From positions 2,216,436 to 2,280,435 of the forward strand of contig NZ_CP041352.1 of NCBI RefSeq assembly GCF_009746125.1: DNA of 64,000 nucleotides, given 5' to 3'. This stretch comes from Casimicrobium huifangae (lineage in GTDB: Bacteria > Pseudomonadota > Gammaproteobacteria > Burkholderiales > Casimicrobiaceae). This document shows, piece after piece, positions 3,590-45,451 of this stretch (positions are counted from its first letter, which is position 1; the number at the start of each line of letters is the position of its first letter). The position numbers were made by a program, and so were the translations under genes. Below the pieces are notes generated by a model. The model was given only the letters and a program-made list of their open reading frames with translations, was not told where the DNA came from and searched no databases.

Positions 3590-3705
3590 CAACTTTATTC
3601 AGGAATGGCGAACGATCAGGGCTCCAGGCGCGAAATGATCAATAGTCGACTTTTCATCGAAATACCGGTTGAGCCCAGATTGGTCAAGGCTTCCAGCAAA
3701 AAGCC
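3590..3705. repeat. dispersed intergenic imperfect palindrome, copy 1
   Basis: The right arm (3646-3705) is 60 bases starting TCGACTTT, with AGCCC at positions 27-31 and ending AAAAGCC. It aligns without gaps with arms at 27024, 31300 and 45392. The left arm (3590-3649) is a degenerate inverted copy sharing the central TCGA and carrying GGGCTC in the mirrored register, so the unit can fold on itself. It lies 11 bases beyond the nudB stop codon, between nudB and the phosphatase gene. I do not know a named family that matches. It may be a MITE-like or REP/ERIC-like element acting at a transcript 3' end. Confidence 0.75.
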
Positions 3706-3716
3706 AATACGGCACG

Positions 3717-4178
3717 CTAAGACGATGGCGAGCAATGAAGTGCCGCGATTTTGACTGAAAGAGCGTCAAATACCGCAGCGTTGCTCCATGAGGTCACCGT
3801 TGTGGCAGCAGCGGCGAACGGCAGCCACTGCCAGGCGACGTGCTCGCGCGGGGCCAGCGTCGGTGTCAGCGTGGACGGCAGGCGCAACGCGAAACAGCGC
3901 TCTCGGTTGTGCGTGATGCCCGGCGGGTAGCGGTACCGCCAGCGCGGATAGATGCAGTAGACGCTCTCGTAGTCGAGGTCAATCAAGCCGCCGAAATCGG
4001 CCGCACGAAAGCCGGTTTCCTCATCGACCTCGCGGGCAGCTGTCTCGGCAAACGATTCGCCTTCGTCCTGCGATCCGGTGACCGATTGCCAGAAGCCGGG
4101 ATAGTCAGCGCGCTCAATCAGCAGCGTCTGGCCGTCGTCAGTGAAGATGACGACTAGAACCGAACGGGGGATTTTCAT
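3717..4178 (-). CDS. nudB: Nudix hydrolase, dihydroneopterin triphosphate diphosphatase-like
   Basis: 153 residues. The full Nudix box spans residues 35-57 (starts GSQDEGESF, ends REVDEETGF), matching G-x5-E-x7-REUxEExGU, which binds the catalytic metal. The N-terminus (MKIPRSVLVVIF) and the segment GFWQSVTGS are typical of NudB, which hydrolyses dihydroneopterin triphosphate in folate synthesis. Other Nudix substrates remain possible. It starts 27 bases after the small membrane gene on the same strand and is probably co-transcribed with the RNase/barstar genes upstream. The repeat element follows directly after its stop. Confidence 0.82.
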   Translation of the reverse strand: MKIPRSVLVVIFTDDGQTLLIERADYPGFWQSVTGSQDEGESFAETAAREVDEETGFRAADFGGLIDLDYESVYCIYPRWRYRYPPGITHNRERCFALRLPSTLTPTLAPREHVAWQWLPFAAAATTVTSWSNAAVFDALSVKIAALHCSPSS

Positions 4179-4205
4179 TGGCTGTGGATCGGGGATTTTT
4201 GGGCG

Positions 4206-4427
4206 CTACCGCCACCAACGCGAGGCGTCGATGATTGCATGGAGTGGCGAGTCGTCGTGATCGTCCGAGTTTCGTGCAATCAGGCAGTTGCGTCCCCACA
4301 AGGCTAAAAACACTGCGACGATCCAGAACCACCAGAAGGCCCGGCCCGGCCAACGCAGAAAAGCGAACAGGCCGATGACGACCAGAATCGCAGCGGCCGC
4401 GAAGCAAAAAAGCGCAAAGCCCCGCAC
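4206..4427 (-). CDS. small membrane protein of unknown function
   Basis: 73 residues beginning with GTG 12 bases after the barstar stop. Two hydrophobic helices are visible, about residues 5-24 (GFALFCFAAAAILVVIGLF) and 28-46 (GRAFWWFWIVAVFLAL). A short polar tail with DDHDDS follows. No family is recognised and there is no clear ribosome-binding site, so translation may depend on coupling to barstar. A longer reading frame in another phase overlaps this region, but only this frame gives a coherent two-helix protein. Because it sits between the barstar and nudB genes, it may belong to the RNase/inhibitor unit; that is inference. Confidence 0.5.
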   Translation of the reverse strand: MRGFALFCFAAAAILVVIGLFAFLRWPGRAFWWFWIVAVFLALWGRNCLIARNSDDHDDSPLHAIIDASRWWR

Positions 4428-4439
4428 CGGAACGAGCGC

Positions 4440-4772
4440 TCAGGCAAGCACCACGCGGAACACGCGATCTTTCTCGCCCCACCAGATACAGGCTTCGTCG
4501 AGGATATCGAGCAGCGTTGTCCAGTCATCGCCGAAGCGCTTGTCGCCCCCCTTGCTGTCGAGTAGCAGCGCAGTGATCGAGGCGCCTGGTGGCCCTTTTG
4601 CCCAGCCGTCATCCATCAGGCAATCGGCGAGGGCGTCCCAGTTATGCCCGAAATGGCGGGGCAGCTTGAGCCCGGCGGCGAGCGCCTCCAGCAGGGCTTT
4701 CTTCGAACGGACGCCTTTTAGGTCAACCTTGAGGACGGTCTCGGCGCGGAAATCATGCACGGCGTTTTTCAT
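4440..4772 (-). CDS. barstar-family ribonuclease inhibitor
   Basis: 110 residues, the usual size of barstar. The family hallmark is visible at about residues 40-52 (HFGHNWDALADCLMD), which corresponds to the acidic helix of barstar that plugs the ribonuclease active site. It has no signal peptide, so it acts in the cytoplasm and would protect the cell from ribonuclease that has not yet been exported. It lies 33 bases downstream of a gene for an RNase Sa-like secreted ribonuclease, on the same strand. Bacillus barnase and barstar and Streptomyces RNase Sa and its barstar homologue are the known precedents for this pairing. Direct inhibition of the neighbour is inference. Confidence 0.88.
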   Translation of the reverse strand: MKNAVHDFRAETVLKVDLKGVRSKKALLEALAAGLKLPRHFGHNWDALADCLMDDGWAKGPPGASITALLLDSKGGDKRFGDDWTTLLDILDEACIWWGEKDRVFRVVLA

Positions 4773-4805
4773 GGCAACCCCTCGGTGTTCTGCGTACGGT
4801 ACGGG

Positions 4806-5195
4806 TTAACGGACGATGCACTTGAACGACTGGTAGTGGTCGTCGCTGTAGTAGCAAGGCTCCGTCGCGCGCTGGTCGCCACCGCAAACAATGCGTCGCG
4901 CGCCGCGATTGCGCGCGCCCGGCGTACGCACGGTGTATTCGTGGTAGTAGCCGCGTGGAGCTTTGGGCAGAATCCGCTCGCGGTTGCCGAAGACGACACC
5001 ATCCCGACCATGTGGAAACGGGCCGCCGGAGGCGATCAGTGCCAGGGTGTCCCGTCCCTGTTTTGGCAGCTCGGCGACCGTGATGCTCTGGCCCAACGCG
5101 CAGGCACCCCGGGCAGCAACAGGGGCCGACAGAAGCGACAGACAGGCGAGCAAGGTCGCCGCTGCAAGTCCAAATCGTGATGAGCCTGATCGCAT
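4806..5195 (-). CDS. secreted guanyl-specific ribonuclease, RNase Sa/barnase superfamily
   Basis: 129 residues: a signal peptide (about 1-29, ending APVAARG) and a mature domain of about 100 residues, the size of RNase Sa. The motifs GPFPHGRDGVVF, YYHEYTV, TPGARNRGARR and DDHYQSF match RNase Sa closely. By that alignment the catalytic residues Glu54, Arg65, Arg69 and His85 correspond to Glu86, Arg97, Arg101 and His120, all present. It should cleave RNA 3' of guanosine outside the cytoplasm. Start choice: ATG 5195 gives a normal signal peptide and is preceded by GGGGTT; an upstream in-frame extension to 5330 has no family support. The barstar gene follows immediately. Cysteines at 32, 104, 114 and 126 could form disulphides. 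Confidence 0.9.
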   Translation of the reverse strand: MRSGSSRFGLAAATLLACLSLLSAPVAARGACALGQSITVAELPKQGRDTLALIASGGPFPHGRDGVVFGNRERILPKAPRGYYHEYTVRTPGARNRGARRIVCGGDQRATEPCYYSDDHYQSFKCIVR

Positions 5196-5268
5196 GACAA
5201 CCCCCGCGCAAACTGAACAGGGCACCGATAAAAGTCGCAGATCGGAGCCGAACGATACGAAGCGTAAC

Positions 5269-5688
5269 CTACTGGCCAGCCTTCCAGCTGCGGTACTCGA
5301 TCTTGATGCAGTGGTTCTGCACAACCGCAATGCCAGCGTCGCGTGCGATCTGCGCAGCTTCTTCGTTCATCACCCCAATCTGCATCCACAGCACCTTCGG
5401 CTTCAGCGACATGGCCGCGACAGCGCGGGCCACCTCGACCATCTCTTCGCTGCGACGGAAGCAATCCACGATATCCACCGGCACCGCAATTTCACTCAAG
5501 GCGCCGACGCACGGCTCTCCAAGGATGCTTTGTCCGGCAGCACGCGGATTCACCGGGATGATGCGGAAGCCGGCCCGCTGCATCACTTGCGCCACCTCGA
5601 AGCTTGGGCGGCTCGGGTTGTCGGACAGACCAACCACGGCAATCGTTTTCGCGGTGGTGAAGAGATCGTCGTAGCTGACTTCAGACAT
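5269..5688 (-). CDS. CoA-binding (Rossmann) domain protein, YccU-like
   Basis: 139 residues forming a single CoA_binding_2 domain. The nucleotide-binding start is TIAVVGLSDNPSRPS near residue 15, followed by GFRIIPVNPRAAGQSILG and, towards the end, VLWMQIGVMNEEA and QNHCIKIEY, which are conserved in the YccU family. The family is thought to bind CoA or acyl-CoA, but the cellular role is not settled. It precedes the RNase gene by 73 bases on the same strand, so they may share a transcript, though no functional link is apparent. Confidence 0.85.
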   Translation of the reverse strand: MSEVSYDDLFTTAKTIAVVGLSDNPSRPSFEVAQVMQRAGFRIIPVNPRAAGQSILGEPCVGALSEIAVPVDIVDCFRRSEEMVEVARAVAAMSLKPKVLWMQIGVMNEEAAQIARDAGIAVVQNHCIKIEYRSWKAGQ

Positions 5689-5713
5689 AGTGCAATGAAC
5701 CCGCAGCTGATCG

Positions 5714-6982
5714 TTAGCGAACGCGGCGGAACGACGAGATGCTGTCGTTCATGCCGGGTGGCATTTCGTTGTACTGGCCTGGGCCGAGCGTGAGGCAGCG
5801 GCCACGGTAATTTGAATCCTCGCAGAATTGCCAGGTGCCGAAGCTGATGAAGATCGACGAGGTGGCATCGTTGAGGCCACTTGACCCAAGATCGGCAACA
5901 TCACCCGTGGCGCGCACCGTGCGGCCGTTGAAATTGCTGTGTTCATAGAGCCACACCGGATGGCGGCTGCGCCCGGCGCCCTGGTCCATCACCACATAGG
6001 CGCCGCCGCCCGGTACCAGGCCGTTCCAGCTCGGCTCGCCCACGCGGCGCAGCGACGAAATCGAGCGATCAAGCTGTGGCGGCAGACGGCGGTAGTCGCC
6101 CGGCCCGAACACCATGCAGCTGCCACCGAAATCACGATCTTCGCAGGCCTCCCAGTTGCCGCCGAACACGCGCATCGACTGGATGCGGTCATTGAAACCA
6201 CTGTTGCGCAGGTTGTCGATGTCGTTGTCCAGCGTCATCGCGGCGCCGGTGAAATTGGGGTTGGTGAATACCTCAACACGGACGCGATCATTGTTCCATG
6301 CCGGTGGCGGTGCAACCGGCGGCGGCGCGACCGCAATCGGTGGAACCGCTGGCAGCGGCGTCGGACGACCGCCATCGACGACGCGCACACTGACGATGCG
6401 GTAGTTCAGCTGCGAGCCCAGATCGTTGTATTGCCCGGGTGGCAGTGCCTGGCAACGGCCGCCGAAGTTGTAATCGGTACAGACCTCCCAGGTGCCGCCG
6501 GTAACAATGGCGGACGCAGCGGTGAACCGGCTGCCGGCGTCGATATCAGCAATGCTCTGCTCGTAGGTCATGGTGCGGCCACGGAAGCCAGTGCGATCAT
6601 AGAGCTGGATTCGGGCGGGCGCGTAGCCGACGCCGGCCGACGCATAGGTGACATCGCGAAGCGACATGACCGTGTCGCCGTAGCGGCCACCCAGTTCACG
6701 GTAGTCGCCGGGCGACAGGCGGCGGCAGTCACCGGTGAAGTTGGCGCCGGTGCAGGCTTCCCACACGCCGGTCGCAACCCGCAGCGAACGCGCAGCGCCG
6801 ATGGGCAGATTGGCCTCGGACCGCGAGATGCGCGCAAAGGCGCCAGTGAAATCGCGCCCGCTGTAAAGCCAGACGTCGGAAGCGGCGGCAACGCCGGATG
6901 ACAGCGCAGCAAGCAGCAAGGCCCCCACGGCAATTTTGGGCGCACCGCCGAAAGCGTGTCGGGTGCGGCTGGAAATGTTCAT
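5714..6982 (-). CDS. exported protein with four beta/gamma-crystallin domains
   Basis: 422 residues. ATG 6982 is preceded by AGGAGGA at good spacing and gives a signal peptide ending about residue 33 (SSGVAAASD), so I use it rather than an upstream start. The mature protein holds four tandem units of about 85-100 residues. Each has a first motif with a Y/F-x6-F-x-G pattern (VWLYSGRDFTG, IQLYDRTGFRG, VEVFTNPNFTG, VWLYEHSNFNG). A second Cys-containing motif follows (WEACTGANFTGDC, WEVCTDYNFGGRC, WEACEDRDFGGSC, WQFCEDSNYRGRC) and leads into PGxY. Eight Greek-key motifs in all. A proline-rich linker separates domains 2 and 3. Such domains often bind calcium in microbes; the function here is unknown. 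Confidence 0.88.
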   Translation of the reverse strand: MNISSRTRHAFGGAPKIAVGALLLAALSSGVAAASDVWLYSGRDFTGAFARISRSEANLPIGAARSLRVATGVWEACTGANFTGDCRRLSPGDYRELGGRYGDTVMSLRDVTYASAGVGYAPARIQLYDRTGFRGRTMTYEQSIADIDAGSRFTAASAIVTGGTWEVCTDYNFGGRCQALPPGQYNDLGSQLNYRIVSVRVVDGGRPTPLPAVPPIAVAPPPVAPPPAWNNDRVRVEVFTNPNFTGAAMTLDNDIDNLRNSGFNDRIQSMRVFGGNWEACEDRDFGGSCMVFGPGDYRRLPPQLDRSISSLRRVGEPSWNGLVPGGGAYVVMDQGAGRSRHPVWLYEHSNFNGRTVRATGDVADLGSSGLNDATSSIFISFGTWQFCEDSNYRGRCLTLGPGQYNEMPPGMNDSISSFRRVR

Positions 6983-7083
6983 ACGGCGTCCTCCTGCGAG
7001 TAATTGAGGCCTGGCCGCGATGCATTGACGCGAAGCGGACGGCCGGGGCACATCGATGCCCAACGCTGATTAGAATCGGCGCG

Positions 7084-7111
7084 TTGACAGTCGATCTTTC
7101 ACTGGTAGCGT
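7084..7111 (+). promoter_or_regulatory. possible sigma70 promoter of the peptide importer operon
   Basis: A perfect -35 hexamer TTGACA (7084-7089) is followed after 16 bases by TAGCGT (7106-7111), a poor -10 match (3 of 6). It lies 38 bases upstream of the first permease gene in the gap after the divergent crystallin gene. The weak -10 keeps confidence low. Confidence 0.35.
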
Positions 7112-7149
7112 AGCGCAAATATCGCCACCAGCCACCACCAAAACTCTGA

Positions 7150-8130
7150 ATGCTGGCGTTTCTTCTCCGTCGACTGACGCAATCACTGCTGGTGCTGCTG
7201 GCGATGAGCGTGCTGGTATTCGTCGGCGTCTACCTGATCGGCAACCCGGTTGACATCCTGATCAGCAGTCAGGCCGATCAGACCGAGCGCGATCGTGCGA
7301 TCGTTGCACTGGGGCTCGACAAACCGCTGTGGGCACAGTACGGCAATTTCGTTCTTGGCGCCATAACTGGCGATCTCGGGCGCAGCTTTGCGCATGGCGT
7401 GCCAGCGCTGGAACTGATACTCAACCGCATGCCGGCGACGCTGGAGCTGGCCTTCGTAGCAATGCTGCTCGCTGTTGGCATTGGTATCCCGCTCGGCCTG
7501 ATCGCGGGCCTGAGACCGAATGGTGTCATTGGCAAGACCATCATGGCCGGTTCAATTCTTGGCTTCAGTTTGCCGACCTTTTGGGTGGGGCTGATGCTGA
7601 TCATGCTTTTCGCGGTGTTTCTCGGCTGGTTGCCGTCAAACGGACGTGGCGAAACGCGGGAGATATTTGGCGTTGGCTGGAGCTTTCTCACAGCAGATGG
7701 CTGGGCCCATCTAATCCTGCCGGCGGTGAATCTGGCGTTATTCAAACTGTCGCTGCTGATCCGGCTGACGCGCGCCGGTGTGCGTGAGGCGCTGGCGATG
7801 GACTACGTGAAGTTCGCCCGCGCCAAGGGGCTGTCGGCGTCGCGCATCGTCGGGGTGCATGTGCTGAAGAACATCATGATCCCCATCGTCACCGTGATCG
7901 GGCTTGAGTTCGGTTCGGTGGTTGCCTTTGCGGTGGTGACCGAAAGCGTGTTTGCCTGGCCCGGTATGGGCAAGTTGCTGATTGACTCAATCAATGTGCT
8001 GGACCGACCGGTGATCGTGGCCTATCTGTTGATCATCGTGAGTCTCTTTGTGTTCATCAACCTGCTGGTGGACCTGGCTTACTCCGCGCTCGACCCGCGC
8101 GTGCGGCTTGGCGATGCGGGAGCGCATTGA
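7150..8130 (+). CDS. peptide-type ABC transporter permease (DppB/OppB family)
   Basis: 326 residues with six predicted membrane helices, beginning with the characteristic MLAFLLRRLTQSLLVL. The N-terminal GNPVDILI segment and the EAA-like loop VREALAMDYVKFARAKGLS (about residue 210) are typical of DppB/OppB. It forms half of the inner-membrane channel of a peptide, nickel or oligopeptide importer. Its stop overlaps the start of the next gene by one base (TGATG), and four genes follow in tight overlap. Substrate cannot be told from the permease. Confidence 0.9.
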   Translation: MLAFLLRRLTQSLLVLLAMSVLVFVGVYLIGNPVDILISSQADQTERDRAIVALGLDKPLWAQYGNFVLGAITGDLGRSFAHGVPALELILNRMPATLELAFVAMLLAVGIGIPLGLIAGLRPNGVIGKTIMAGSILGFSLPTFWVGLMLIMLFAVFLGWLPSNGRGETREIFGVGWSFLTADGWAHLILPAVNLALFKLSLLIRLTRAGVREALAMDYVKFARAKGLSASRIVGVHVLKNIMIPIVTVIGLEFGSVVAFAVVTESVFAWPGMGKLLIDSINVLDRPVIVAYLLIIVSLFVFINLLVDLAYSALDPRVRLGDAGAH

Positions 8131-9023
8131 TGGCCAATGCAGTGCAGGCCGGCAATTCACTATGGCGCGAAAAGGCCGGTGAATTTGCGGCCGACCGCAT
8201 GGCGATGTTCGGTCTGGTGCTGTTTGTGCTGATCGTGCTGGCGGCGCTGGGGGCACCATGGCTGTCGCCGCAGAACCCCTACGACCTGTCGCAGCTGGAC
8301 GTGCTTGATGCGCGTCTGCCGCCGGGTAGCGCGGCGGCGGATGGCGGGCACTATCTGCTCGGCAGCGACGAGCAGGGGCGCGATCTGCTGTCGGCGATCC
8401 TCTACGGGTTGCGTATCAGTCTCGGTGTCGGCGTGGTTTCAACCCTGATTGCCGTGACGCTGGGCCTGCTGATCGGCCTGCTGGCCGCCTACAAAGGGGG
8501 GCGCTGGGACAGTGTGATCATGCGCGTGGTCGACATCCAGTTGTCGTTCCCGGCCATCCTGATCGCACTGATTTTGCTTGCGGTCCTCGGTCAGGGCATC
8601 GGCAAGATCATCGCGGCGCTGGTCACCGTGCAATGGGCGTACTACGCACGAACCGTGCGCGGTGCGGCGCTTGCCGAGAAAAACAAGGATTACATTGCCG
8701 CCGCACAGGGGCTCGGCTTGTCAGCTGGACGCATTGTGCTGCGTCATTTACTGCCAAACTGCCTGCCGCCGCTGATCGTGGTGGCGTCGGTGCAAGTGGC
8801 GCATGCGATAGCACTAGAGGCAACCTTGTCGTTTCTTGGGCTGGGTTTGCCGATTACGGAGCCATCGCTCGGGTTATTGATTGCCAACGGTTACCAATAT
8901 CTGCTCTCCGGCAAGTATTGGGTCAGCTTCTTCCCCGGCGTTGCGCTGTTGCTCACCATCGTCAGCATCAATCTCGTCGCCGATCAGCTTCGGGATGTGC
9001 TGAATCCGAGGCTCGCGAAATGA
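8130..9023 (+). CDS. peptide-type ABC transporter permease (DppC/OppC family)
   Basis: 297 residues and the partner of the preceding permease. It has the N-terminal DppC/OppC pattern: a short cytoplasmic segment, a first helix near residue 27 (MFGLVLFVLIVLAALGAPWL), a periplasmic stretch with GSDEQGRDLLSAILYG, then five more helices. The EAA loop reads AALAEKNKDYIAAAQGLGLS near residue 180. ATG 8130 is used; a TTG three bases earlier is in frame but less likely. The end overlaps the ATPase gene by ATGA. Confidence 0.9.
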   Translation: MANAVQAGNSLWREKAGEFAADRMAMFGLVLFVLIVLAALGAPWLSPQNPYDLSQLDVLDARLPPGSAAADGGHYLLGSDEQGRDLLSAILYGLRISLGVGVVSTLIAVTLGLLIGLLAAYKGGRWDSVIMRVVDIQLSFPAILIALILLAVLGQGIGKIIAALVTVQWAYYARTVRGAALAEKNKDYIAAAQGLGLSAGRIVLRHLLPNCLPPLIVVASVQVAHAIALEATLSFLGLGLPITEPSLGLLIANGYQYLLSGKYWVSFFPGVALLLTIVSINLVADQLRDVLNPRLAK

Positions 9024-10006
9024 CCGCACCGCTGCTTGAGGTACGCGGCCTGCAGACCTGGTTCGCCAGCAAGGCCGGCGAAGTCCGTGCCGTCGATGGC
9101 GTCGATCTCGCCGTCGGCGCTGGCGAAGTGCTCGGGTTGGTTGGTGAGTCCGGGTCCGGCAAGTCGGTGACCGGCTTTTCGATCATGGGGCTGGTTGATG
9201 CGCCGGGTCGCGTCGTTGCCGGCGAAATCCGCTTCGCTGGTCGCTCGCTGGTGGGGCTCGCCGAGCGGGAGTGGCGAGCGCTACGCGGGCGCGACATTGC
9301 GATGATCTTCCAGGATCCGATGTTGACCCTGAATCCGGTGCTGCGCATCGACACGCAAATCATCGAGGCGATTCGCGCCCATGCTGACGTCAGCGCCGCG
9401 CGCGCCCGGGAGTGGGCACAGCAGGCGCTGGCCGAAGTAGGCATTCCATCGCCTGGCGAGCGGATGCTGGCGTATCCGCACCAGTTTTCCGGTGGCATGC
9501 GGCAGCGGGTAGCGATCGCCATTGCCTTGCTGCATGGCCCGAAGCTGCTGATTGCCGATGAACCGACCACGGCGCTTGACGTGACGATCCAGGGGCAAAT
9601 CCTCGCCCAGGTGCAGGCGCTGGCCGCCAGCCGTGGGACTGCCGTCATCTGGATCACGCATGACCTGTCGGTGGTGAGCGGTCTTGCCGACCGCATCGCG
9701 GTGATGTACGGCGGCCGCATTGTCGAAGAGGGGCCGACGACGGCGGTGCTCGGCTCGCCGGCGCACCCGTACACGCGAGCCTTGCTGCGCTCGCTGCCGT
9801 CGCAAAACCAACCAGGTCAGCCTCTGGCCCAGATTCCCGGCACACCGCCGCAGCTGATCGGCCAACGCCTTGGGTGCGCCTTTGCGCCGCGTTGCGCAGA
9901 AGCAGGCGGGCGTTGCGGCGTGGACGATCCGGCGCCGCATCGCGTTCAGGCGCGTATGGCGCGCTGTCACTTCGCATTCGAAGCGGCGGCGGAGCAGCAA
10001 GCATGA
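9020..10006 (+). CDS. peptide-type ABC transporter ATPase (DppD/OppD family)
   Basis: 328 residues. Walker A is GESGSGKS near residue 48, the signature is FSGGMRQRVAIAIAL, Walker B is LLIADEPTTALDVT, and the switch His lies in WITHDLSVV. The C-terminal oligopeptide-transporter extension carries the cysteine pattern GCAFAPRCAEAGGRC plus a final RCHF, which in relatives binds an iron-sulphur cluster or metal. ATG 9020 overlaps the stop of the permease by 4 bases. A long upstream in-frame extension runs inside the permease gene and is not real. Confidence 0.92.
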   Translation: MTAPLLEVRGLQTWFASKAGEVRAVDGVDLAVGAGEVLGLVGESGSGKSVTGFSIMGLVDAPGRVVAGEIRFAGRSLVGLAEREWRALRGRDIAMIFQDPMLTLNPVLRIDTQIIEAIRAHADVSAARAREWAQQALAEVGIPSPGERMLAYPHQFSGGMRQRVAIAIALLHGPKLLIADEPTTALDVTIQGQILAQVQALAASRGTAVIWITHDLSVVSGLADRIAVMYGGRIVEEGPTTAVLGSPAHPYTRALLRSLPSQNQPGQPLAQIPGTPPQLIGQRLGCAFAPRCAEAGGRCGVDDPAPHRVQARMARCHFAFEAAAEQQA

Positions 10007-11028: not shown

Positions 11029-11054
11029 TTTCTGAACTTTTCTGAAACAACAAG

Positions 11055-25484: not shown

Positions 25485-26921
25485 ATGAAAGACATCCTTC
25501 TCGTTCTCCCTGAAATCGTCCTGCTGAGTCTGACCAGCCTGCTGCTGGTAGTGGACCTGTTCGTCGGTCGCACCCAGAAACATTTCACCTTTGCCTGCGG
25601 TATCGGCGCGCTACTGTGGACGGCGCTGTTCGTTGGCGCGCAGTTCACGCCGATTGGCAGCTTGCCGAGTGAGACGGCATTTGCCGGCCTGTTCGTCGCC
25701 GATGGCGCCGCCACAGCGCTCAAGCTGGCGATCCTGCTCTCGGCAGCGGTTGCATTGGCTTACTCGTGGACCTACCTCAAGAAGCACGGTCTGGACAACG
25801 GCGAATTCATCGCGCTGGTGCTGCTTGGCACGCTCGGCATGATGGTGATCGCCAGCGCAGCAAGCATGCTGACCGCCTACCTGGGCCTTGAGCTGCTGAG
25901 CCTGTCGATGTACGCACTGGTCGCGCTCAAGCGCGATGACCGTATCGCGACTGAAGCGGCGATGAAGTATTTCGTGCTCGGTGCGCTGGCGTCGGGTCTG
26001 CTGCTATTCGGCATGTCGATCATTTACGGCGCCACCGGCTCGATCAGCCTGGGCGGCATCTCGGCCGCACTGGGCAAGGCGAACCCGACGGCGGTGGCCT
26101 TTGGTCTGATCTTCATCGCGGCTGGCGTCTCGTTCAAACTGGGTGTGGTGCCTTTCCACATGTGGGTACCGGACGTTTACAACGGTGCGCCAACAGCTGT
26201 CACGCTGTTCCTCGGCACCGCGCCGAAAGTCGCAGCGTTCGCGCTGGCGTACCGTTTGTTCGGCAGTGGCCTTACACCAGCGGCGGGCGACTGGTCAGTG
26301 ATCCTCGCCGTGATTGCTACCTTGTCGGTGGTCCTTGGCAACCTGATCGCTATCGTGCAGACCAACATCAAGCGCATGCTGGCTTACTCCGCCGTCGCCA
26401 ACATGGGCTTCCTGTTGCTCGGCTTCGTCGGAGGTGGTAAGGAGGGCTACGCTGCGGCGCTTTTCTACGCCGTTGCCTACGCGATTACCGGCCTCGTCTC
26501 GTTCGGCATCCTCGTGCTGCTCTCTGGCCGTGGCGTCGAGTTCGACAATATTGACGACCTCAAGGGCCTCAACACCCGCTCGCCGTGGTTCGCGTTCCTG
26601 ATGTTGCTGGCAATGTTCTCGCTGGCGGGCATTCCGCCAACCATCGGCTTCTGGGCCAAGCTGTCGGTGATTGAGTCGGTCGTCGGCGCCGGGTACACCT
26701 GGATCGCCGTGATCGCCGTGCTGGCCTCGCTGGTTGGCGCGTTCTACTACCTGCGCGTCGTTCGCGTGATGTATTTCGCTGAACCCACCGAGGGTGCGCT
26801 CGCCTTGCCGAACCGCAGCGAGACGGTGTTGATCTCGGCCAATGCGCTGGCGATTCTGGTGCTCGGCGCGCTGCCCAGCACCATCATGGCGGTCTGCCTG
26901 AAGGCACTGCAGACTGGCTGA
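25485..26921 (+). CDS. nuoN: NADH-quinone oxidoreductase subunit N
   Basis: 478 residues, the third antiporter-like proton-pumping subunit. The Glu of the first channel lies in YLGLELLSLSMYALVAL, the Lys in GVSFKLGVVPFHMWVPDVY and the second broken helix near NIKRMLAYSAVANMGF. It closes the nuo operon; a hairpin and then a copy of the intergenic repeat follow the stop codon. Confidence 0.98.
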   Translation: MKDILLVLPEIVLLSLTSLLLVVDLFVGRTQKHFTFACGIGALLWTALFVGAQFTPIGSLPSETAFAGLFVADGAATALKLAILLSAAVALAYSWTYLKKHGLDNGEFIALVLLGTLGMMVIASAASMLTAYLGLELLSLSMYALVALKRDDRIATEAAMKYFVLGALASGLLLFGMSIIYGATGSISLGGISAALGKANPTAVAFGLIFIAAGVSFKLGVVPFHMWVPDVYNGAPTAVTLFLGTAPKVAAFALAYRLFGSGLTPAAGDWSVILAVIATLSVVLGNLIAIVQTNIKRMLAYSAVANMGFLLLGFVGGGKEGYAAALFYAVAYAITGLVSFGILVLLSGRGVEFDNIDDLKGLNTRSPWFAFLMLLAMFSLAGIPPTIGFWAKLSVIESVVGAGYTWIAVIAVLASLVGAFYYLRVVRVMYFAEPTEGALALPNRSETVLISANALAILVLGALPSTIMAVCLKALQTG

Positions 26922-26949: not shown

Positions 26950-26967
26950 CCTGTTCGCCAAGTCATC

Positions 26968-27083
26968 AGCTTTTTGTCGAAACGGCCATTCCGCATGGGC
27001 TTGGCCCACAGAAACACGCTTTATCGACTTTCGCCGATTTTGCGCTGATAGCCCAATGCCGATGCGGCTTTGATTGAAAAGCC
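26968..27083. repeat. dispersed intergenic imperfect palindrome, copy 2
   Basis: The right arm 27024-27083 begins TCGACTTTCG, has AGCCC at positions 27-31 and ends AAAAGCC after exactly 60 bases. The left arm 26968-27027 is an inverted, diverged copy (28 of 60 positions complementary to the right arm by hand count) that shares the central TCGA and has TGGGCT in the mirrored register. It lies 46 bases beyond nuoN in a 311-base gap before the LysR gene. In the remaining 150 bases of that gap (27084-27232) I see no gene or recognisable signal. Confidence 0.72.
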
Positions 27084-27232
27084 GTGTCCCTTTGTCCATG
27101 CTTGGTGGCAATTCACTTCGGGCGTTGCCGGCGTGAAGTTTCGTTCCTGGGCGCAGCACTCTCCAAGGCGAACTGGCCCAAATCTGACGCCCCTACGCCG
27201 TCAGTTCAAGCGCCGCCGCCGCAATCGGGATA

Positions 27233-31299: not shown

Positions 31300-31359
31300 T
31301 CGACTTTCGGCCAAATCACCGCCTGAGCCCAACGCCATCAAGGCCTTCAGCGAAAAGCC
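31300..31359. repeat. dispersed intergenic repeat, copy 3 (single arm)
   Basis: A 60-base arm with TCGACTTTCG at its start, AGCCC at positions 27-31 and AAAAGCC at its end, matching the other three arms without gaps. Only the bases nearest the centre (GAAAGATCGA) suggest a left arm here; the GGGCT block is absent, so this copy appears to be a half element. It ends 9 bases beyond the glnE stop codon. The remainder of the IclR-glnE gap outside this and the operator shows no gene. Confidence 0.75.
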
Positions 31360-38362: not shown

Positions 38363-39229
38363 TTACCGGCGCGCTGGCAGAAACAGCTCCGGCTCGACGC
38401 TGGTCCCGTTGAGGTAGACCGACCAGTGCAGATGCGGCCCGCTGGCGCGCCCGGTAGCGCCTGATCTCGCGACGGCCTGACCTTTGCGCACGCTATCGCC
38501 CACCCTTGCATCCCATTCGCTGAGATGGCAAAACAGGCTCAGCAGGCCATTGCCATGGTCGATGAACATCGTCTTGCCACAAAAGTAGTAGTCGCCGATG
38601 TCGAGGATTACGCCGTCGGCGGGCGCAAGGACGGCAGTTCCCGTCATCACCGCGACATCCAACCCGGCATGTGGTGCCCGCGGCTTGCCGTTCAGTACAC
38701 GGGAGCCGCCAAAGCGCCCCGACAACCGACCCTTGGCAGGCTGCACGAAGGCGGCATCCGTCGCCGCTGTCTCGCGCCACTGCGAACGCACGACTTTCAG
38801 GTGCGCCGACTCGCGTTCGATGCGAGCCATGACATCGGCGGGCGGCTCGACCATTGCCTGGTCGCGCAAGGTGACATGCTGCACCGGGTAGCGCTTGGGT
38901 TTGACGGTGAATGTGATGGTCCTGGCCGCGCCGTCGGCACTCCGAACGTCGACTTGTTGCTCGCCGGGTTGGAGCGACAGCGGCAACCCGACGGCGGCAA
39001 CCCACTGCGTGGCCTGCCTGCTGACCCACACCGGCACGCCGTCACGGCTCACCGCTGGCCTGGGTTCGGTGGCGTCGCCCACGTGCAGCAGCGCCACGCC
39101 GCCAGGTACGCGGGACTCGCGGGGCAGGGCGCCCGCGTGTCCAACGCCTGCGATGAGTGCGGCACCGGCGAGCACCGCTGACAGCTTCCACGTTGCCCTC
39201 GCGCTCCAGTCAATACAGGCGAACCTCAT
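38363..39229 (-). CDS. M23/LytM-domain murein peptidase
   Basis: 288 residues. A hydrophobic N-terminus (about 14-33) is probably a signal peptide. Then comes an immunoglobulin-like N-terminal domain (LSLQPGEQQVDVRSADG) and a C-terminal LytM domain. Zinc ligands are His187 and Asp191 in HAGLDVA and His268 in HLHW, with the general-base candidate His266. The motif GRLSGRFGGSRVLNGKPR leads into the active site. It should cleave peptidoglycan cross-links in the periplasm. Its ATG directly abuts the stop of the Smr gene (TAGATG), so the two are co-transcribed, though no functional link is known. Confidence 0.9.
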   Translation of the reverse strand: MRFACIDWSARATWKLSAVLAGAALIAGVGHAGALPRESRVPGGVALLHVGDATEPRPAVSRDGVPVWVSRQATQWVAAVGLPLSLQPGEQQVDVRSADGAARTITFTVKPKRYPVQHVTLRDQAMVEPPADVMARIERESAHLKVVRSQWRETAATDAAFVQPAKGRLSGRFGGSRVLNGKPRAPHAGLDVAVMTGTAVLAPADGVILDIGDYYFCGKTMFIDHGNGLLSLFCHLSEWDARVGDSVRKGQAVARSGATGRASGPHLHWSVYLNGTSVEPELFLPARR

Positions 39230-39967
39230 CTACTTGCTTCCTCGCAGCAACACCAGCACTGCACCGCTGCCACCGCCATTGGGCCGCGGTTCGCAATAGG
39301 CGAGCACCTCGTCCTTGTGTTGCAGCCAGCGACGCACCTTGTTACGCAGCACCGGGAGCTTCTGGTGACTCGACAGCCCTTTGCCGTGGATAATGCGCAC
39401 GCAGCGCCAGCCGGCCAGCCGTGCCATACGCATGAATTCCATCAGCGCCTCATGTGCCTCGTCCTGATTGTGATGATGCAGGTCGATCTCGGCATTGATC
39501 GTCCATTCGCCGCGCCGCAGCTTGCGCAGCAGATCGGGGCTGACGCCGCCGCGCAGGTAACTCTGTTCGTCTTCAATGTCAGCGCCAATGTCCCAGCTCA
39601 TCGGGCTCGGATGCATTGCCAACTGGCTGGCGGCCAACGCAGCCAGCTCGTCAGCCTCCCGATGCCGTGCGTGTGGCGCGGGTCGTACATGTCCGGCGTC
39701 GGCGCGTGGCGCCACGCGCAACGGCTCCACGTCCTGCACCGCCGCACGGAACGCAGCAAGATCATCGGCTGTGGGTGGCGTGAACTCCCGCCAGGGACGG
39801 AAGAAGTCGGCGAAACGCTCTATCGGCACATCCGGCACTGACTTCTCCGCTGCGGACTGTTCCGACATCAGTTCAGAGCGCTCAGCTGAACGCCGCTCCT
39901 TGCGGGCGGCCTTGCGTTCCTGCTTCAGCAGGGTGCCGAGGTCGGCGAGATCGTGCGCAGACGCCAT
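39230..39967 (-). CDS. Smr-domain protein
   Basis: 245 residues. The C-terminal Smr domain is complete, with EIDLHHHNQDEAHEAL (the LDLHG-like motif) near residue 163 and IIHGKGLSS (the HGxG motif) near residue 200, ending GGSGAVLVLLRGSK. The N-terminus is a charged helix (KQERKAARKERRSAERSEL). Smr domains are nicking endonucleases, lately linked to mRNA cleavage at stalled ribosomes. Proteobacterial relatives include YdaL and SmrA/SmrB. The stop lies against the start of the M23 gene. Confidence 0.9.
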   Translation of the reverse strand: MASAHDLADLGTLLKQERKAARKERRSAERSELMSEQSAAEKSVPDVPIERFADFFRPWREFTPPTADDLAAFRAAVQDVEPLRVAPRADAGHVRPAPHARHREADELAALAASQLAMHPSPMSWDIGADIEDEQSYLRGGVSPDLLRKLRRGEWTINAEIDLHHHNQDEAHEALMEFMRMARLAGWRCVRIIHGKGLSSHQKLPVLRNKVRRWLQHKDEVLAYCEPRPNGGGSGAVLVLLRGSK

Positions 39968-39997
39968 TGCCGACTCCGTCTGACCACCCGGCGACCA

Positions 39998-40987
<990 letters not shown>

Positions 40988-41039
40988 TTATGGGTTGCGT
41001 CGTGCGGAGAATGCAGAAGTTGACAGAGGCTGGCGAGCA

Positions 41040-41660
41040 TCAGCCCCCAGTCATGGCCACCATGCGGATCAGATGGGCCAACGAGGTCGCCTCCATCTTT
41101 TCCATGACACGGGCACGATGCGCCTCGACCGTTTTGATGCTGATGTCAAGGTCATAGGCAATGGTCTTGTTCATCTTTCCGGTGACCACGGCATCAAGCA
41201 CCTGACGTTCGCGTTCCGAGAGCGACGCCAGTCGCCCCTCGATGCCCGCAATCTGGCTTTGCTGCGCCTGGGCCTCGACGGCGAAGGACAGCGCTTCCTC
41301 GATGCGTTTCAGCAGATCGCTTTCGGCAAATGGCTTCTCGATGAAGTCGAAGGCGCCACGCTTGATGGCGGTGACCGCAATCGGGACGTCAGCATGCGCC
41401 GTGACGAAGATGAGGGGCATCTGAACGCCCCGTTCGACCAGCGCTTCCTGCGTTTGTGGTCCGCTCAGACCGGGCATGCGCACGTCAAGCACCGCGCAGC
41501 GGGGCGGGCCGCCCACGCCGGGCTTCACTTCGGCAAGAAAGCTCTCGGCATCGGGAAAAAGGCGGGCCTGGTAGCCATTGGACTGCAGCAGCCAGGCAAC
41601 CGAATCGCGGAACGCCTCGTCGTCATCGACTACGTAAACAATGCCGGGGTGAATGCTCAT
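41040..41660 (-). CDS. FixJ/NarL-type response regulator
   Basis: 206 residues. The receiver domain has the acidic pair Asp12/Asp13 (VVDDDEAF), phosphoacceptor Asp59 (VLDVRMPG), Thr in VTAHADV and Lys in IEKPFAE. The C-terminal LuxR-type helix-turn-helix reads LSERERQVLDAVVTGKMNKT then LDISIKTVEAHRARVMEKM, the FixJ family pattern. It overlaps the kinase gene by 4 bases, so the kinase is its partner. No target operon (such as dicarboxylate transport or terminal oxidases) is next to it here. Confidence 0.93.
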   Translation of the reverse strand: MSIHPGIVYVVDDDEAFRDSVAWLLQSNGYQARLFPDAESFLAEVKPGVGGPPRCAVLDVRMPGLSGPQTQEALVERGVQMPLIFVTAHADVPIAVTAIKRGAFDFIEKPFAESDLLKRIEEALSFAVEAQAQQSQIAGIEGRLASLSERERQVLDAVVTGKMNKTIAYDLDISIKTVEAHRARVMEKMEATSLAHLIRMVAMTGG

Positions 41661-43786
41661 GCGTGGGCTCCGTCGCGCTCGTTCTCGGCAGGCGGGCGGG
41701 CCTGCGGTTGGTCTTGGGGGTGATCAGCGGCGTGTTCGGCACTGTGGTCGAACGGCAGGGTAAACCTGAACACGGCACCGCAGGGCTCATTTTGTCCGAA
41801 AGTGAGGTTGCCCTCGTGATATTCAATCAGCGAGCGGCAGATGTTGAGCCCCATACCCATGCCATCGTTCTTGGTACTGAAAAACGGCGAGAAGAGCTGT
41901 CGTGCTGCCTCCGGCGAGATTCCTACGCCGCGATCAGCCACTTCGACCATCGCATGGCTGCCGTCGACCCGTGTGGTGCGAATCTCGGCGATCCGCTGGG
42001 CCGGCGCCAGATGCTGCATGGCTTCGCGGGCGTTGCGCAGGAAATTAAGCAGCACCTGTTCGATCATGATGCGATCGGCAAACACCAGCGGCAGATCACG
42101 CGCCAGACGTAGCTCACAGGTCAGGGCGCGCTGCTCGTCGTCACTCTGCGCCAGCTTCACCACTTCGATGACCAGGGCATTGACGTCGAGCGGCTGCCGC
42201 TGCGGCTCACGGGTGCGCACGAATTCACGAACACGGCCAATGATGGCGCCGGCACGCGCCACCTGGGCATCAGCCTTTTCCATGGCACCGATCACTGCCT
42301 GATCGACGTTCCCATTGTTCTTCAGCCGACGGATACAGCCGTTGACATAGTTTGCGATCGCCGCCAGCGGCTGGTTGATTTCGTGGGCGAGGGTAGAGGC
42401 AATCTCGCCGACGGTCATCAACCGTGAGGTGCGTGTCAGCTTGTCCTGCTGCGTTTGCCGGATGCGTTCGGCGTTGACCCGGTCCGTAATGTCGCCCAAC
42501 GTGGTCAGGCGCGCGATGCGGCCATCCACCCAGCGCACGGCGCGGGTGCGCATCAGGAAATGGCGGTGGTCACTGTGTTCGAGCTCGTCCTTGAACACGT
42601 CCCCCGGTTCGCCCTCGCGGGTCAGCAACATCGGCGCCGGGAAGCGGTTGCTGGGGCTGTCGAGAAAGCCATCTTCAAACTGCCGGGCGTCGCGGCCAAT
42701 TTCGATGGCAGGGAAGGTTTCGTGCAGGTGCGAATTGGCGTACAGCAGCTCGTTGCTGCGCAAGTCACTCACATAAACCGAGACATCGAGCGAATCGAGT
42801 ACGGTTTCAAAGCGTTCGTTGGTGACCCGCAGGTCAGCGATCGACTGCGCATAAGTGCGGTCGCGCTCCACCTCGGCCTGCTTGCGCATGCGCTGCTGCT
42901 TGCGCAACCCGATCGAAGTCCACACCATCAACCCGGTCAGCGCCAGCACAGCGGTCGACAGCGTCAGATTGGGCAGCAGCGTCGATGGCTTGGCGCCGAC
43001 CAGCGTCAATTGCAGATCGCGCCAGGGCAGCGACAGCGGTACCGTGTGTTTGACCACGCCGGATTCGATATGCATGGCCTCGGCATTGGTCATGCCCTGA
43101 CCGCTGGCGTCGGAGATCACCGCACGGTACTTGCGCCCGGCCCATTCCGGGGCTGCCTTTTCGAGCAGCGCATCGAAAGAGATGACGCTGTTGATGGTGC
43201 CGACGAAATCGCCCTGCGCCACCACCGGCGCCGCGTACTCGATGTAGTAACGCCCTAGATCATTGCGGTAAGGCTGGGAATAGGTGCTGCGGCTGGTCTT
43301 GCGCGTCAGGCCGGTCATCCACACCTGATCGGCGAACGGCGCGCGACCACGCAGCACCATCTCGAGCGAGCGCGAACCTGGGGCATGCTGCACGACATCG
43401 AGCTCGGGCGTGACGCGCATGATGTCGGTGACATATCCCGACTCGACCGCCCGTTTGCTGGCCACGCGGTCGAATTCCTCCGGCGAAATGCGTTCGCCGC
43501 CGACATCGAGTGCCAGTCGGTCAAAGAACTGCTGATCGTTTTCCAGGCGCCGAGAGATGGACTGCTCAACCACCGCTGCGTCGCGGATGATTTCGGCCTT
43601 CTCGAATTCCTGTTCGTGCTGTGCGACGAAATAAATCAGCAACATCATGCCAGCCGCAAAGGCCAGCAGCATCCATTCATGCACATACCAGTCACGTTGC
43701 GGTGCACCGGTCACTGAGGCAATGCGCGGCTTGCCTGGGGCAACGGCCTGTTTGCTCGTGGTCGGGGCGGCGGACGGATCGGGCAT
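41657..43786 (-). CDS. membrane sensor histidine kinase with periplasmic sensor and PAS domain
   Basis: 709 residues from ATG 43786; an upstream in-frame extension to 43966 has no family support. Two transmembrane helices (about 35-53 and 305-325) enclose a periplasmic Cache/CHASE-like sensor of about 250 residues. A PAS-like domain follows (about 360-450). The phosphoacceptor is His468 in LAHEINQPLAAIANYV, and the ATPase has NFLRNAREAM, DRGVGI and GMGMGLNICR. The EINQPL form places it in the FixL/DctB group. The ligand is unknown. The gene overlaps its response regulator by 4 bases. Confidence 0.92.
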   Translation of the reverse strand: MPDPSAAPTTSKQAVAPGKPRIASVTGAPQRDWYVHEWMLLAFAAGMMLLIYFVAQHEQEFEKAEIIRDAAVVEQSISRRLENDQQFFDRLALDVGGERISPEEFDRVASKRAVESGYVTDIMRVTPELDVVQHAPGSRSLEMVLRGRAPFADQVWMTGLTRKTSRSTYSQPYRNDLGRYYIEYAAPVVAQGDFVGTINSVISFDALLEKAAPEWAGRKYRAVISDASGQGMTNAEAMHIESGVVKHTVPLSLPWRDLQLTLVGAKPSTLLPNLTLSTAVLALTGLMVWTSIGLRKQQRMRKQAEVERDRTYAQSIADLRVTNERFETVLDSLDVSVYVSDLRSNELLYANSHLHETFPAIEIGRDARQFEDGFLDSPSNRFPAPMLLTREGEPGDVFKDELEHSDHRHFLMRTRAVRWVDGRIARLTTLGDITDRVNAERIRQTQQDKLTRTSRLMTVGEIASTLAHEINQPLAAIANYVNGCIRRLKNNGNVDQAVIGAMEKADAQVARAGAIIGRVREFVRTREPQRQPLDVNALVIEVVKLAQSDDEQRALTCELRLARDLPLVFADRIMIEQVLLNFLRNAREAMQHLAPAQRIAEIRTTRVDGSHAMVEVADRGVGISPEAARQLFSPFFSTKNDGMGMGLNICRSLIEYHEGNLTFGQNEPCGAVFRFTLPFDHSAEHAADHPQDQPQARPPAENERDGAHA

Positions 43787-43968
43787 CAGGCGATTGTAGG
43801 TAAGGCGGCGGTTACCGCGTTCAGCACGCCGGTATGCTTTTGGGTGTACGCTAGCAACGCGCAGGTCTGTTGTTGGGTCAGTCAGACATTTTGGTCGCGC
43901 CGACATGTCGCAAGCTGCAGCGAGATACCGCGCAAAGTACATGCACAACGAGACACGGGAGGACATCC

Positions 43969-44430
43969 ATGCTGGTCAGTGAAATTCTTCGCATCAAGGG
44001 CAGTACGCTGTTCACGGCAACGCCCGACATGAGCGTCAAGGACGCTGTGCATTCGATGGCGGAGCAGGATATTGGCTCGCTGGTGGTGATGGACAAGGGC
44101 AAGCTGGTCGGCATGCTCACGTTTCGCGAGCTGATCAAGGTGCTTGACGAGCGCGGCGCGGAGCTGAAGTCGCTGGCGGTGGGTGCAATCATGGAGGCCA
44201 ATCCGCTGACCGCTGACCCGCACATGGAGGTGAACGCCCTGCGCGGTGCCATGCTGGAGCGTCACGCCCGTTATATCCCGATCATGGAGGCCGGCACCCT
44301 GATGGGCGTGTTGTCGTTCCATGACGTGGCGAAGGCTGTGTTCGAAGAGCAGAGCTTCGAAAACCGCATGCTCAAGAGCTACATCAAGAACTGGCCGGAC
44401 GAAGAAGAAACAGCGGCACAATCCAGCTAG
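43969..44430 (+). CDS. CBS-domain-pair protein
   Basis: 153 residues made of two CBS domains: the first about 8-65 (TPDMSVKDAVHSMAEQDIGS then GMLTFRELIKVL), the second about 75-135 (TADPHMEVNALRGAMLERHARYIP then GVLSFHDVAKAV). Such stand-alone pairs bind adenine nucleotides and act as energy sensors for partners; the partner here is unknown. ATG 43969 is preceded by GGGAGGA, which decides the start over an in-frame upstream extension. Its stop codon shares CTAG with that of the convergent exporter gene. Confidence 0.9.
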   Translation: MLVSEILRIKGSTLFTATPDMSVKDAVHSMAEQDIGSLVVMDKGKLVGMLTFRELIKVLDERGAELKSLAVGAIMEANPLTADPHMEVNALRGAMLERHARYIPIMEAGTLMGVLSFHDVAKAVFEEQSFENRMLKSYIKNWPDEEETAAQSS

Positions 44431-45326
44431 CCGGCGGCTTGGCTGGTTGGTTTGGTAGCTGGCCGCAACACCAGAATCACCGCCACGACTATCGCCAGCA
44501 ACGCCACATAGTCGAACGGCCGTGGCCGTTCGCCGAGCAGCAGCATGCCGCTGGCGAAGCCAACGATTGGCACTGCCAGCGAGCTGATGCCGGTAATCTG
44601 CGCCGGCAACGCCCGTACCAGTTCGTTCCACGCGAACCAGCAGAAGCCAAACACCACCAGCACGTTGAACAGGAGACCGGCCCAGGCACTGGCGGCGACC
44701 GGTAGCCACGGTCCGTGCCCGAACAGCGCGAGGCCGGTGAACAGCGGCCAGCCACCGAGCACAAAGCTCCAGATCATCAGGGTGGTGGTCGGGATTGATT
44801 TTGGGAAGCCCTTGAACAGCACGATGCCAACGGCCCACAGCAGGCCTGACGCCACCATCATCAGTGCAGCAACCGGCGCGCCGCGCAGCGCCTGGAACTC
44901 GTCCACCAGCAAGAGCGCGATGCCGCCCATGCCGATGCTGATCGCGGCAATTCGCGAAGGGGTGAGCACCTCCCCCAGGAACACTCGTGACAGCAGCACC
45001 ACCCAGAGCGGCATGGTGTAGGCCAGCACGCCAGCGCGGCCCGAGGGCAGCATGGTCAACGCCGCAGCAGAAAGGATGTTCCACGCCGCCACGTTGCACA
45101 GCGCGCAGACCAACATGCGCCCCCAGTGCTCGCGCGGCAGCGTGAGCGGGACGCCGCGCTTCAGGTTGAAAGCAACAAACCAGAGCAGGCCGGCCGCGAT
45201 GCAGTAGGAGCGGAACACCCAGAAGTTGAGCTCCGCCAACGCCATCTTCATCATCGGCCAGTTCACGCCCCAGAGCAGCACGACGGCGACAAAAAGTCCC
45301 AGTTCACGGCGTCCGATCACGGGCAT
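44427..45326 (-). CDS. EamA/DMT-superfamily transporter
   Basis: 299 residues with ten hydrophobic helices arranged as two EamA repeats (LLWGVNWPMMKMALAEL in the first, VFGFCWFAWNELVRAL in the second). DMT exporters expel metabolites such as amino acids or nucleobases; the substrate is not evident. ATG 45326 is used; the AAAAGG 10 bases before it lies in the end of intergenic repeat copy 4, so the repeat may supply part of the ribosome-binding site. An in-frame TTG at 45350 inside the repeat is rejected. The C-terminus converges on the CBS gene. Confidence 0.9.
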   Translation of the reverse strand: MPVIGRRELGLFVAVVLLWGVNWPMMKMALAELNFWVFRSYCIAAGLLWFVAFNLKRGVPLTLPREHWGRMLVCALCNVAAWNILSAAALTMLPSGRAGVLAYTMPLWVVLLSRVFLGEVLTPSRIAAISIGMGGIALLLVDEFQALRGAPVAALMMVASGLLWAVGIVLFKGFPKSIPTTTLMIWSFVLGGWPLFTGLALFGHGPWLPVAASAWAGLLFNVLVVFGFCWFAWNELVRALPAQITGISSLAVPIVGFASGMLLLGERPRPFDYVALLAIVVAVILVLRPATKPTSQAAG

Positions 45327-45335
45327 TGCAGCATT

Positions 45336-45451
45336 ACCTTTTGGCCACAATTACCGCTGCATGCGGGCTTGGCAATGAATAACGTCAAAACTCGACTTTC
45401 GCATAAAACGGCCCCTGAGCCCTGATCGAATAAGCCATTCAGCCAAAAGCC
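45336..45451. repeat. dispersed intergenic imperfect palindrome, copy 4
   Basis: The right arm 45392-45451 (TCGACTTTCG start, AGCCC at positions 27-31, AAAAGCC end, 60 bases) aligns without gaps with the other arms. The left arm 45336-45395 shares the central TCGA and carries GGGCT in the mirrored register. Here the symmetry reaches further. The right end continues as GCCAAAAGCCAATGC and the left end, read on the other strand, as GCCAAAAGGTAATGC, so terminal inverted repeats bound about 45331-45456 (126 bases). It lies between the DMT gene start and the DUF2863 gene end. Confidence 0.75.

Follow-up and report, generated by a model that had tools for sequence, protein, structure and literature searches.

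Dispersed three-axis DNA dyads in Casimicrobium, candidate chromosomal docking sites written in lineage-specific dialects

Casimicrobium huifangae (Gammaproteobacteria, Burkholderiales) carries, dispersed over its chromosome, a family of symmetric DNA elements about 122 bp long, four copies of which lie in the stretch of 64,000 nucleotides analysed here (assembly GCF_009746125.1, contig NZ_CP041352.1, positions 2,216,436 to 2,280,435; ‘the window’). These dyads occur genome-wide, share a geometry with three axes of symmetry, are spaced more evenly than chance in three of the four genomes tested, recur at conserved places between species, and are written in different letters (‘dialects’) in different lineages of the genus. 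Such features suggest that a symmetric protein-DNA complex may dock at these scattered elements and so organise the chromosome, a proposal to which, arguing from sequence, we give an even chance.

A genome-wide family of symmetric elements

An earlier note, made from the letters of the window, had described four ungapped arms of exactly 60 bases, and all four match the pattern TCGACTTT-N18-AGCCC-N22-AAAAGCC without a mismatch, where 0.01 matches are expected in the window by chance. Across the whole genome from which the window comes (G000; 4,465,898 bp; one of 17 genomes of the genus, G000-G016), this pattern at up to three mismatches finds 158 arms on the forward and 147 on the reverse strand, and none on either strand when read backwards. 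The near-equal counts show no strand asymmetry of the kind in which good arms would be found chiefly on the plus strand over the first 3 Mb; a perfect minus-strand left arm exists at element 1642468.

A symmetric profile trained on the G000 arms was run over an 864-kb sample comprising the window, a contiguous 440 kb (3.00-3.44 Mb) and 18 scattered 20-kb stretches, with a score of at least 20 required to call a dyad and reversed sequence as the control. The further copies that the note had proposed to look for were indeed present: 67 dyads, 61 of them scoring at least 56, and none in the control, where the maximum was 6.3. Extrapolated from this sample, the genome would hold about 346 elements. 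The scattered stretches contain 1.72 elements on average (variance 1.15), with at least one in 16 of the 18. Of eight half elements called, six are genuine, including the third copy in the window, and two, at 1201044 (57 bp from 1200987) and 1876065 (1 bp from 1876064), prove to be shadows of neighbouring full elements. Comparison of the whole window with Rfam yields nothing at the gathering thresholds, and no description of the element was found in the open-licence literature, in keeping with the note’s remark that it knew of no named family with this consensus.

The element is a rigid DNA dyad, in which a central AAAGTCGACTTT palindrome is accompanied by a flanking palindrome about 34 bp away on each side, and by A/T tracts phased at about 10 bp (best period of the A/T profile 9.55-10.05 bp in six genomes). 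Read outward from the axis, the G000 arm comprises GACTTT (positions 1-6), A/T (13-15), AGCCC (25-29), A/T (30-37), GG.T (41-44), TTT (44-46), AAAA (52-55) and GCY (56-58), with near-background composition between these blocks. Paired arms within 300 bp of each other meet at an offset of 0, 1 or 2 in 64 of 65 cases in G000, and the symmetric core reaches about 61 bp to either side of the axis, giving a unit of 122 bp in place of the 116 bases first proposed. The axis of the flanking palindrome (AGCCC..GGGCT), as read from the consensus, lies 34.5 bp out in G000, 34.0 bp in G012 and G006, and 33.5 bp in G002.

With the flanking palindrome taken as module beta, the order beta-alpha-beta at 33-34 bp spacing is the commonest multi-module pattern in all six genomes; at a lenient module threshold, single beta matches are frequent as well (15 in G002, 18 in G006). 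Longer module arrays in G002 and G006, to which arm offsets of 66-67 and 133-134 bp had pointed, are not common in this count; the offsets arise from the near-symmetry of each arm about 34 bp.

Spacing, orthologous places and dialects

Gene predictions come from a simple hexamer method and have approximate starts. Of the 67 G000 elements, 62 lie in or beside gaps of at least 60 bp, distributed as 17 elements to 63 convergent gaps, 32 to 241 tandem gaps and 13 to 98 divergent gaps; among gaps of at least 150 bp, the difference between convergent and divergent is not significant (p 0.22). Where genes run in tandem, the closer gene end is a 3' end for 24 of the 32 elements (medians 98 and 169.5 bp; p 0.007), so that a dispersed, mostly intergenic family enriched near gene 3' ends, as the note had envisaged, is what the wider sample contains. 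Elements inside predicted genes number 14 of 41 in G002 and 6 of 38 in G006.

Compared with random placement confined to intergenic DNA (5000 simulations), spacing is over-dispersed in G000 (n=35; coefficient of variation (CV) 0.64 vs 0.92 simulated; p 0.007), where two spacings fall below 5 kb against 10.6 expected, and likewise in G002 (n=41; CV 0.56 vs 0.88) and G006 (n=38; CV 0.46 vs 0.81), in both of which none of the 5000 simulations was as regular. Mean spacings are about 12.7 kb in G000, 4.9 kb in G002, 5.4 kb in G006 and 15.6 kb in G012, and the CV, taken without simulation, is 0.54 in G015 (n=17) and 0.44 in G010 (n=11). Two segments of the otherwise regular G000 array, 3298300-3334800 (∼37 kb, G+C fraction 0.620) and 3367200-3411500 (∼44 kb, 0.597), contain no full dyad.

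The places of the elements, too, are shared between species. At the site 3' of nuoN, an element is present in 10 of 14 loci of the genus (G000 included), with its axis 73-133 bp past the end of the protein match; at the site 5' of the EamA-type transporter gene next to copy 4, 12 of 15 loci hold one (G000 included). Both sites lack an element in G008 and G016, and the G004 transporter locus ends at a contig end. Each species writes the element at these orthologous loci in its own dialect, AGCCC in G000 and G011, the AACGACC type in G012 and G003, and the GCCCAATT type in G006. In a comparison of unselected loci between G011 and G000, all six mappable gaps with an element in G011 have one in G000, as against 1 of 15 gaps without one holding an element (the G011 pieces having been chosen for holding elements), and across dialects (pairs G000-G012, G000-G015, G000-G010, G002-G006 and G006-G010) conservation is seen in 6 of 9 element gaps as against 0 of 32 other gaps. 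Single in-frame stops interrupt a few otherwise well-conserved gene matches at these loci (TAG in nuoN of G015, TGA and TAA in the transporter of G011 and G003, respectively), possibly as a result of sequencing errors or decay.

Arms of the G000 pattern range from none to 305 in 16 genomes of the genus, and those genomes with few or no matches carry the same geometry in different letters. Dialect profiles were obtained by a de novo search for inverted pairs followed by symmetric refinement (that of G010 was seeded from the G006 profile), and their information content, with small-sample bias left in, is 44.7 bits per arm in G012 (AACGACC..GGTCGTT), 41.8 in G015 (TyAGCCCyTA), 39.4 in G000 (AGCCC), 37.0 in G010 (from only 11 elements), 26.1 in G006 (GCCCAATTnAATTGGGC) and 19.2 in G002 (TAGCCC). 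Each of four dialect profiles also detects elements in every other genome scanned with them, and the inner palindrome of G006 alone occurs 133 times at up to one mismatch, with none in the control.

What changes between dialects is most clearly delimited in the comparison of G000 with G012, where the flanking palindrome switches from AGCCC to AACGACC (column correlation 0.21 for its inner half, 0.49 for the other) while the centre (0.95), the A/T tract (0.96) and the outer block (0.91) stay. Over all 15 genome pairs, only the A/T tract is always highly correlated (0.80-0.99); the centre and outer block vary more outside this pair. In a small three-protein tree, the AGCCC and AACGACC dialects each fall in two sub-clades, a placement that leans on G003 (a genome 85% complete with 7% contamination).

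Outside the genus, the G000 pattern is absent from seven other genomes of the family and occurs 0 to 2 times in genomes of the order and in controls. Samples of three other genera (160, 160 and 80 kb) gave no element-like score, the best being 12 against a control value of 16; the remaining above-control matches all had negative scores. Within the genus, the sister lineage formed by G008 and G016 is nearly without the system, with one element in 120 kb of G008, none in 140 kb of G016, and genome-wide arm matches of 3+3 and 1+1, respectively; the few copies in G008 could be remnants or could stem from contamination of the assembly. A scan of named species listed at least 120 matching stretches, among which 116 fall in eight beta-proteobacterial or Burkholderiales metagenome assemblies and four are single matches in Caballeronia, Algoriphagus (2) and Paenibacillus, the latter four probably due to chance. 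An unrelated repeat, with CAGATT/AATCTG and GACGCA-type units, forms clusters within the first 100 kb of contig C31 in G010.

A candidate docking role and its rivals

If the dyads are docking sites, the ∼122-bp duplex would be bent or wrapped; its sequence places A/T-rich minor grooves every ∼10 bp on both sides of the central GTC|GAC axis. A homodimer would read the palindrome ∼34 bp to each side, which we infer because the flanking sites are palindromic and their two halves change in concert in G012. A slower-changing part, either another domain or a second protein, would read the centre and the phased A/T and, as far as G000 and G012 are concerned, the outer AAAAGCY as well. Selection would keep the sites at fixed places, mostly behind genes and some 5 to 16 kb apart, and chromosomal loops or supercoil domains would end there. 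A shift of reader specificity in one lineage could then lead to the rewriting of its sites by point changes, without a move to new places, and so to the dialects. The reader itself would be a fast-changing protein, and the occurrence of AGCCC and AACGACC in two sub-clades each, a point that leans on G003, would make its gene a mobile code in its own right.

Palindromic sites dispersed over the chromosome are familiar from matS/MatP, Noc and SlmA, whose sites are ∼12 to 24 bp long and often restricted to certain chromosomal regions. The dyads resemble them in being dispersed and palindromic, but are 122 bp long, have three axes and are found in 16 of the 18 scattered stretches. They may represent a new class of bacterial chromosome element, in which evenly spaced, three-axis docking dyads partition the chromosome, their places being inherited and their code switched as a set in some lineages because the reader changes its specificity or is itself exchanged between lineages; we advance this broader claim tentatively, at slightly under an even chance. 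If the sites do organise the chromosome, they would amount to an explicit code, written in bacterial DNA, for how domains are spaced, which the degenerate gyrase motif of Escherichia coli does not offer. They would also provide a natural experiment, close relatives having changed a chromosome-wide code without moving its places. A comparison of G008 and G016 with the other genomes would allow direct tests of what determines supercoil-domain size and of how a genome-wide binding code changes.

Several observations weigh against a docking role. The part in chromosome architecture is one that we infer, and a search that covered four protein families (PF00521, PF00216, PF02195 and PF01797) found no reader; counts of HU/IHF and ParB fail to distinguish genomes that have the dyad system from those that lack it. 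Spacing in G012 is not significantly regular (n=18; CV 0.71 vs 0.91; p 0.13), the nuoN sites of G004 and G013 lack an element, and three of the nine cross-dialect element gaps are not conserved. At ∼38 to 90 bits, again with small-sample bias left in, each element carries far more information than is needed to locate a few hundred sites, an excess for which molecular drive would account more simply. Uptake sequences, moreover, were once also proposed to compact DNA on the basis of an even spacing that is disputed (excerpted text of PMC1939737).

The principal rival is accordingly a drive like that of uptake sequences, in which element-bearing fragments would be preferentially taken up or transferred and recombined in, so that sites accumulate and drift into dialects with no intracellular role; we consider it unlikely, although high information and motif strength would come naturally under drive. 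The DNA uptake sequences (DUS) of Neisseriaceae and uptake signal sequences (USS) of Pasteurellaceae are over-represented, in hundreds to thousands of copies, and have lineage dialects that evolve in place. DUS dialects follow lineage and often form inverted pairs at gene ends (in an excerpt of PMC3630211), while uptake sequences combine a core with A/T tracts and evolve in place by point mutation, not insertion (in the portion of PMC7811141 concerned), all of which the dyads share. The uptake protein ComEC is encoded in all 16 genomes searched but also in genera without the motif, and does not discriminate. In contrast to DUS (∼12 bp) and USS (∼30 bp), which are short motifs usable singly, the dyads have an exact two-fold geometry over a rigid 122 bp, are mostly intergenic, and are an order of magnitude sparser, with copies ∼5-16 kb and not ∼1 kb apart. 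To our knowledge, uptake has no need for such exact geometry, and we know of no uptake sequence that would fit it together with the low density and, in G000, the confinement to intergenic DNA. Uptake sequences often lie inside genes (65% in Haemophilus influenzae and 35% in Neisseria gonorrhoeae, as given in part of PMC1939737), as opposed to the location of the G000 elements in or beside gaps. Were transfer of DNA the driving force after all, the dyads would constitute an uptake-type signal of new size and geometry. Strong sites for DNA gyrase, at which GyrA2GyrB2 would cleave the central TCGA and wrap both arms, are an improbable alternative that has the layout in its favour: the known motif spans 130 bp, is symmetric about a 4-bp stagger and has a central 36 bp with two 47-bp periodic flanks, of period 10.75 in E. 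coli (section of PMC6379681), and the six-bladed domains on which gyrase wraps DNA make minor-groove contacts (excerpt of PMC11626157). The dyads resemble this motif, and the strong sites of Mu, pSC101 and pBR322, in length, in two-fold symmetry about a 4-bp centre, and in phased A/T and G/C flanks; their gene 3' end bias would fit the removal of positive supercoils, and 13 of the 17 genomes of the genus have a single full-length GyrA-type gene and no ParC match, although genera that lack the motif likewise have gyrase alone. Profiles reduced to A/T rank the annotated Mu cut (axis 17881) 704, 1426, 483 and 126 of 36,568 (top 0.3-4%; summed rank 343, top 0.9%), but base-specific profiles miss it (ranks 11165, 14465, 1734 and 3582), and other positions in Mu score best with the A/T profiles. 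The E. coli motif is degenerate, whereas dyads have base-specific blocks that are >90% conserved; the dyad period of 9.55-10.05 differs from 10.75; and of the central base preferences -4G/+8C, -2A/+6T and +1G/+4C (portion of PMC12324340), +6T is matched (81%) but +8C (C 15%) and +4C (C 1%) are not. Gyrase as the sole reader is ruled against by a wrapping domain of GyrA that is nearly unchanged across dialects, 99.1% identical between G011 (AGCCC) and G012 (AACGACC) and 97.5% between G000 and G012.

Explanations that invoke copied sequence or transcripts meet with other difficulties. The note had likened the elements to a folded repeat such as REP (repetitive extragenic palindromic) or ERIC sequences, or to a miniature inverted-repeat transposable element (MITE), and REP, BIME and REPIN sequences are indeed intergenic, present in many copies, often near gene 3' ends, and arranged in inverted pairs; the dyads differ in lacking both hairpin covariation and a GTAG-type head. 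In 66 G000 elements, identity between copies at 21 low-information positions is 0.296 against 0.307 expected from column composition, complementarity of left and right arms is 0.287 within an element against 0.302 between different elements, and the inner palindrome has no convincing pairing covariation (best p 0.06 of 11 pairs). The family is not a copied repeat; its copies share nothing beyond the motif. With neither arm complementarity, compensatory pairing nor identity outside the motif, and with recurrence at orthologous sites, the comparison to folded repeats is not supported, and a spreading repeat is disfavoured because those sites in other species hold elements of another dialect. A REP/REPIN identity in particular, which calls for a stem-loop of 20-40 nt with compensatory pairing and for copies of one ancestor sequence, fits poorly with the missing stem covariation and the missing shared ancestor; two of eight RNA folds have z < -2. 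A dispersed non-autonomous transposon (a MITE or a pair of terminal inverted repeats), with target immunity producing the even spacing, would suit the mirrored ends, the ∼346 copies and the over-dispersion, yet is barely credible given the lack of shared descent outside the motif, the orthologous positions across species, two dialect patterns without a match in viral contigs, and target duplications that, sought as the note had advised, were nowhere convincing (best z 2.8 among 140 distance/length combinations). It is likewise highly improbable that the dyads act in RNA, as bidirectional terminators or transcript-end hairpins: the 3' end bias in tandem gaps and an inner palindrome followed by TTT, like a short terminator, would agree with this, but covariation is lacking in the inner palindrome and between arms, 13 elements occupy divergent gaps, where no transcript ends, and the folding anticipated by the note is found in both strands of copy 2 (z -2.06 and -2.44) but not in the other six of the eight strands (z -1.58 to 0.49). 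A regulon of scattered transcription-factor operators is made unlikely by the location of the elements away from 5' ends and by a 200-kb sample of G006, in which 25 of 28 strong flanking palindromes (control 0) lie within full elements; the three lone ones have three mismatches each and are inside predicted genes.

As regards topoisomerase genes, the other four genomes of the genus, which are fragmented, show two partial GyrA/ParC-type matches each, those in G003 overlapping. Elsewhere in the family, five genomes have one full-length match, G020 has two and G022 one fragment. In the order's other families, two such proteins are present in 8 of 10 genomes. Topoisomerase IV has apparently been lost in the lineage. 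Within the genus, most pairs of genomes conserve residues ∼520-840 of GyrA, the wrapping domain, better than its N-terminal part (92.5 vs 89.4% for G000 and G006).

G000 also has a classical REP-type family of its own, in which GTAGCCTCGATGCAGCGAAGCGGAATCGAGG repeats flank a Y1-transposase (RAYT-like) gene at ∼3283700-3284500. This GTAG hairpin repeat is a different sequence from the dyad, with eight copies at up to four mismatches in the 864 kb, no copy coming closer than 200 bp to a dyad. Matches to Y1_Tnp occur in 10 of 12 genomes, comprising all eight with the dyad system and two of the four without it (G017 and G019, with none in G008 and G016).

The four copies in the window

Copies 1, 2 and 4 carry the inverted second arm that the note had reported, with dyad scores far above the reversed-sequence maximum, and each contains an exact arm match. 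Element 1 (3587..3708; score 88.2) has its axis between 3647 and 3648, within the TCGA at 3646-3649, and its flanking palindromes, placed from the consensus (d24-45), lie at 3603..3624 on the GGGCT side, ∼34.5 bp from the axis, and at 3671..3692 on the AGCCC side. On one side it neighbours the 3' end of nudB (3717, minus strand), on the other the 5' end of a HAD-phosphatase-like gene. Element 2 (26965..27086; axis between 27025 and 27026; score 90.3) starts 44 bp past the nuoN stop at 26921. Element 3 (31300..31359, plus strand) is a half element, as the note had supposed, whose right arm is an exact match and scores 39.9, compared with -36.7 for the left; it stops 10 bp short of the 3' end of glnE (31369, minus strand). 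Gene identification thus agrees with the note in placing copies 1 to 3 just 3' of nudB, nuoN and glnE.

Element 4 (45333..45454; axis between 45393 and 45394; score 75.2) lies between two minus-strand genes, an EamA-type transporter gene with its 5' end at 45350 and a DUF2863 gene with its 3' end at 45514. Its extended mirrored ends, which had been taken to resemble terminal inverted repeats, consist mostly of the outer consensus AAAAGCYRAT that is common to the whole family.

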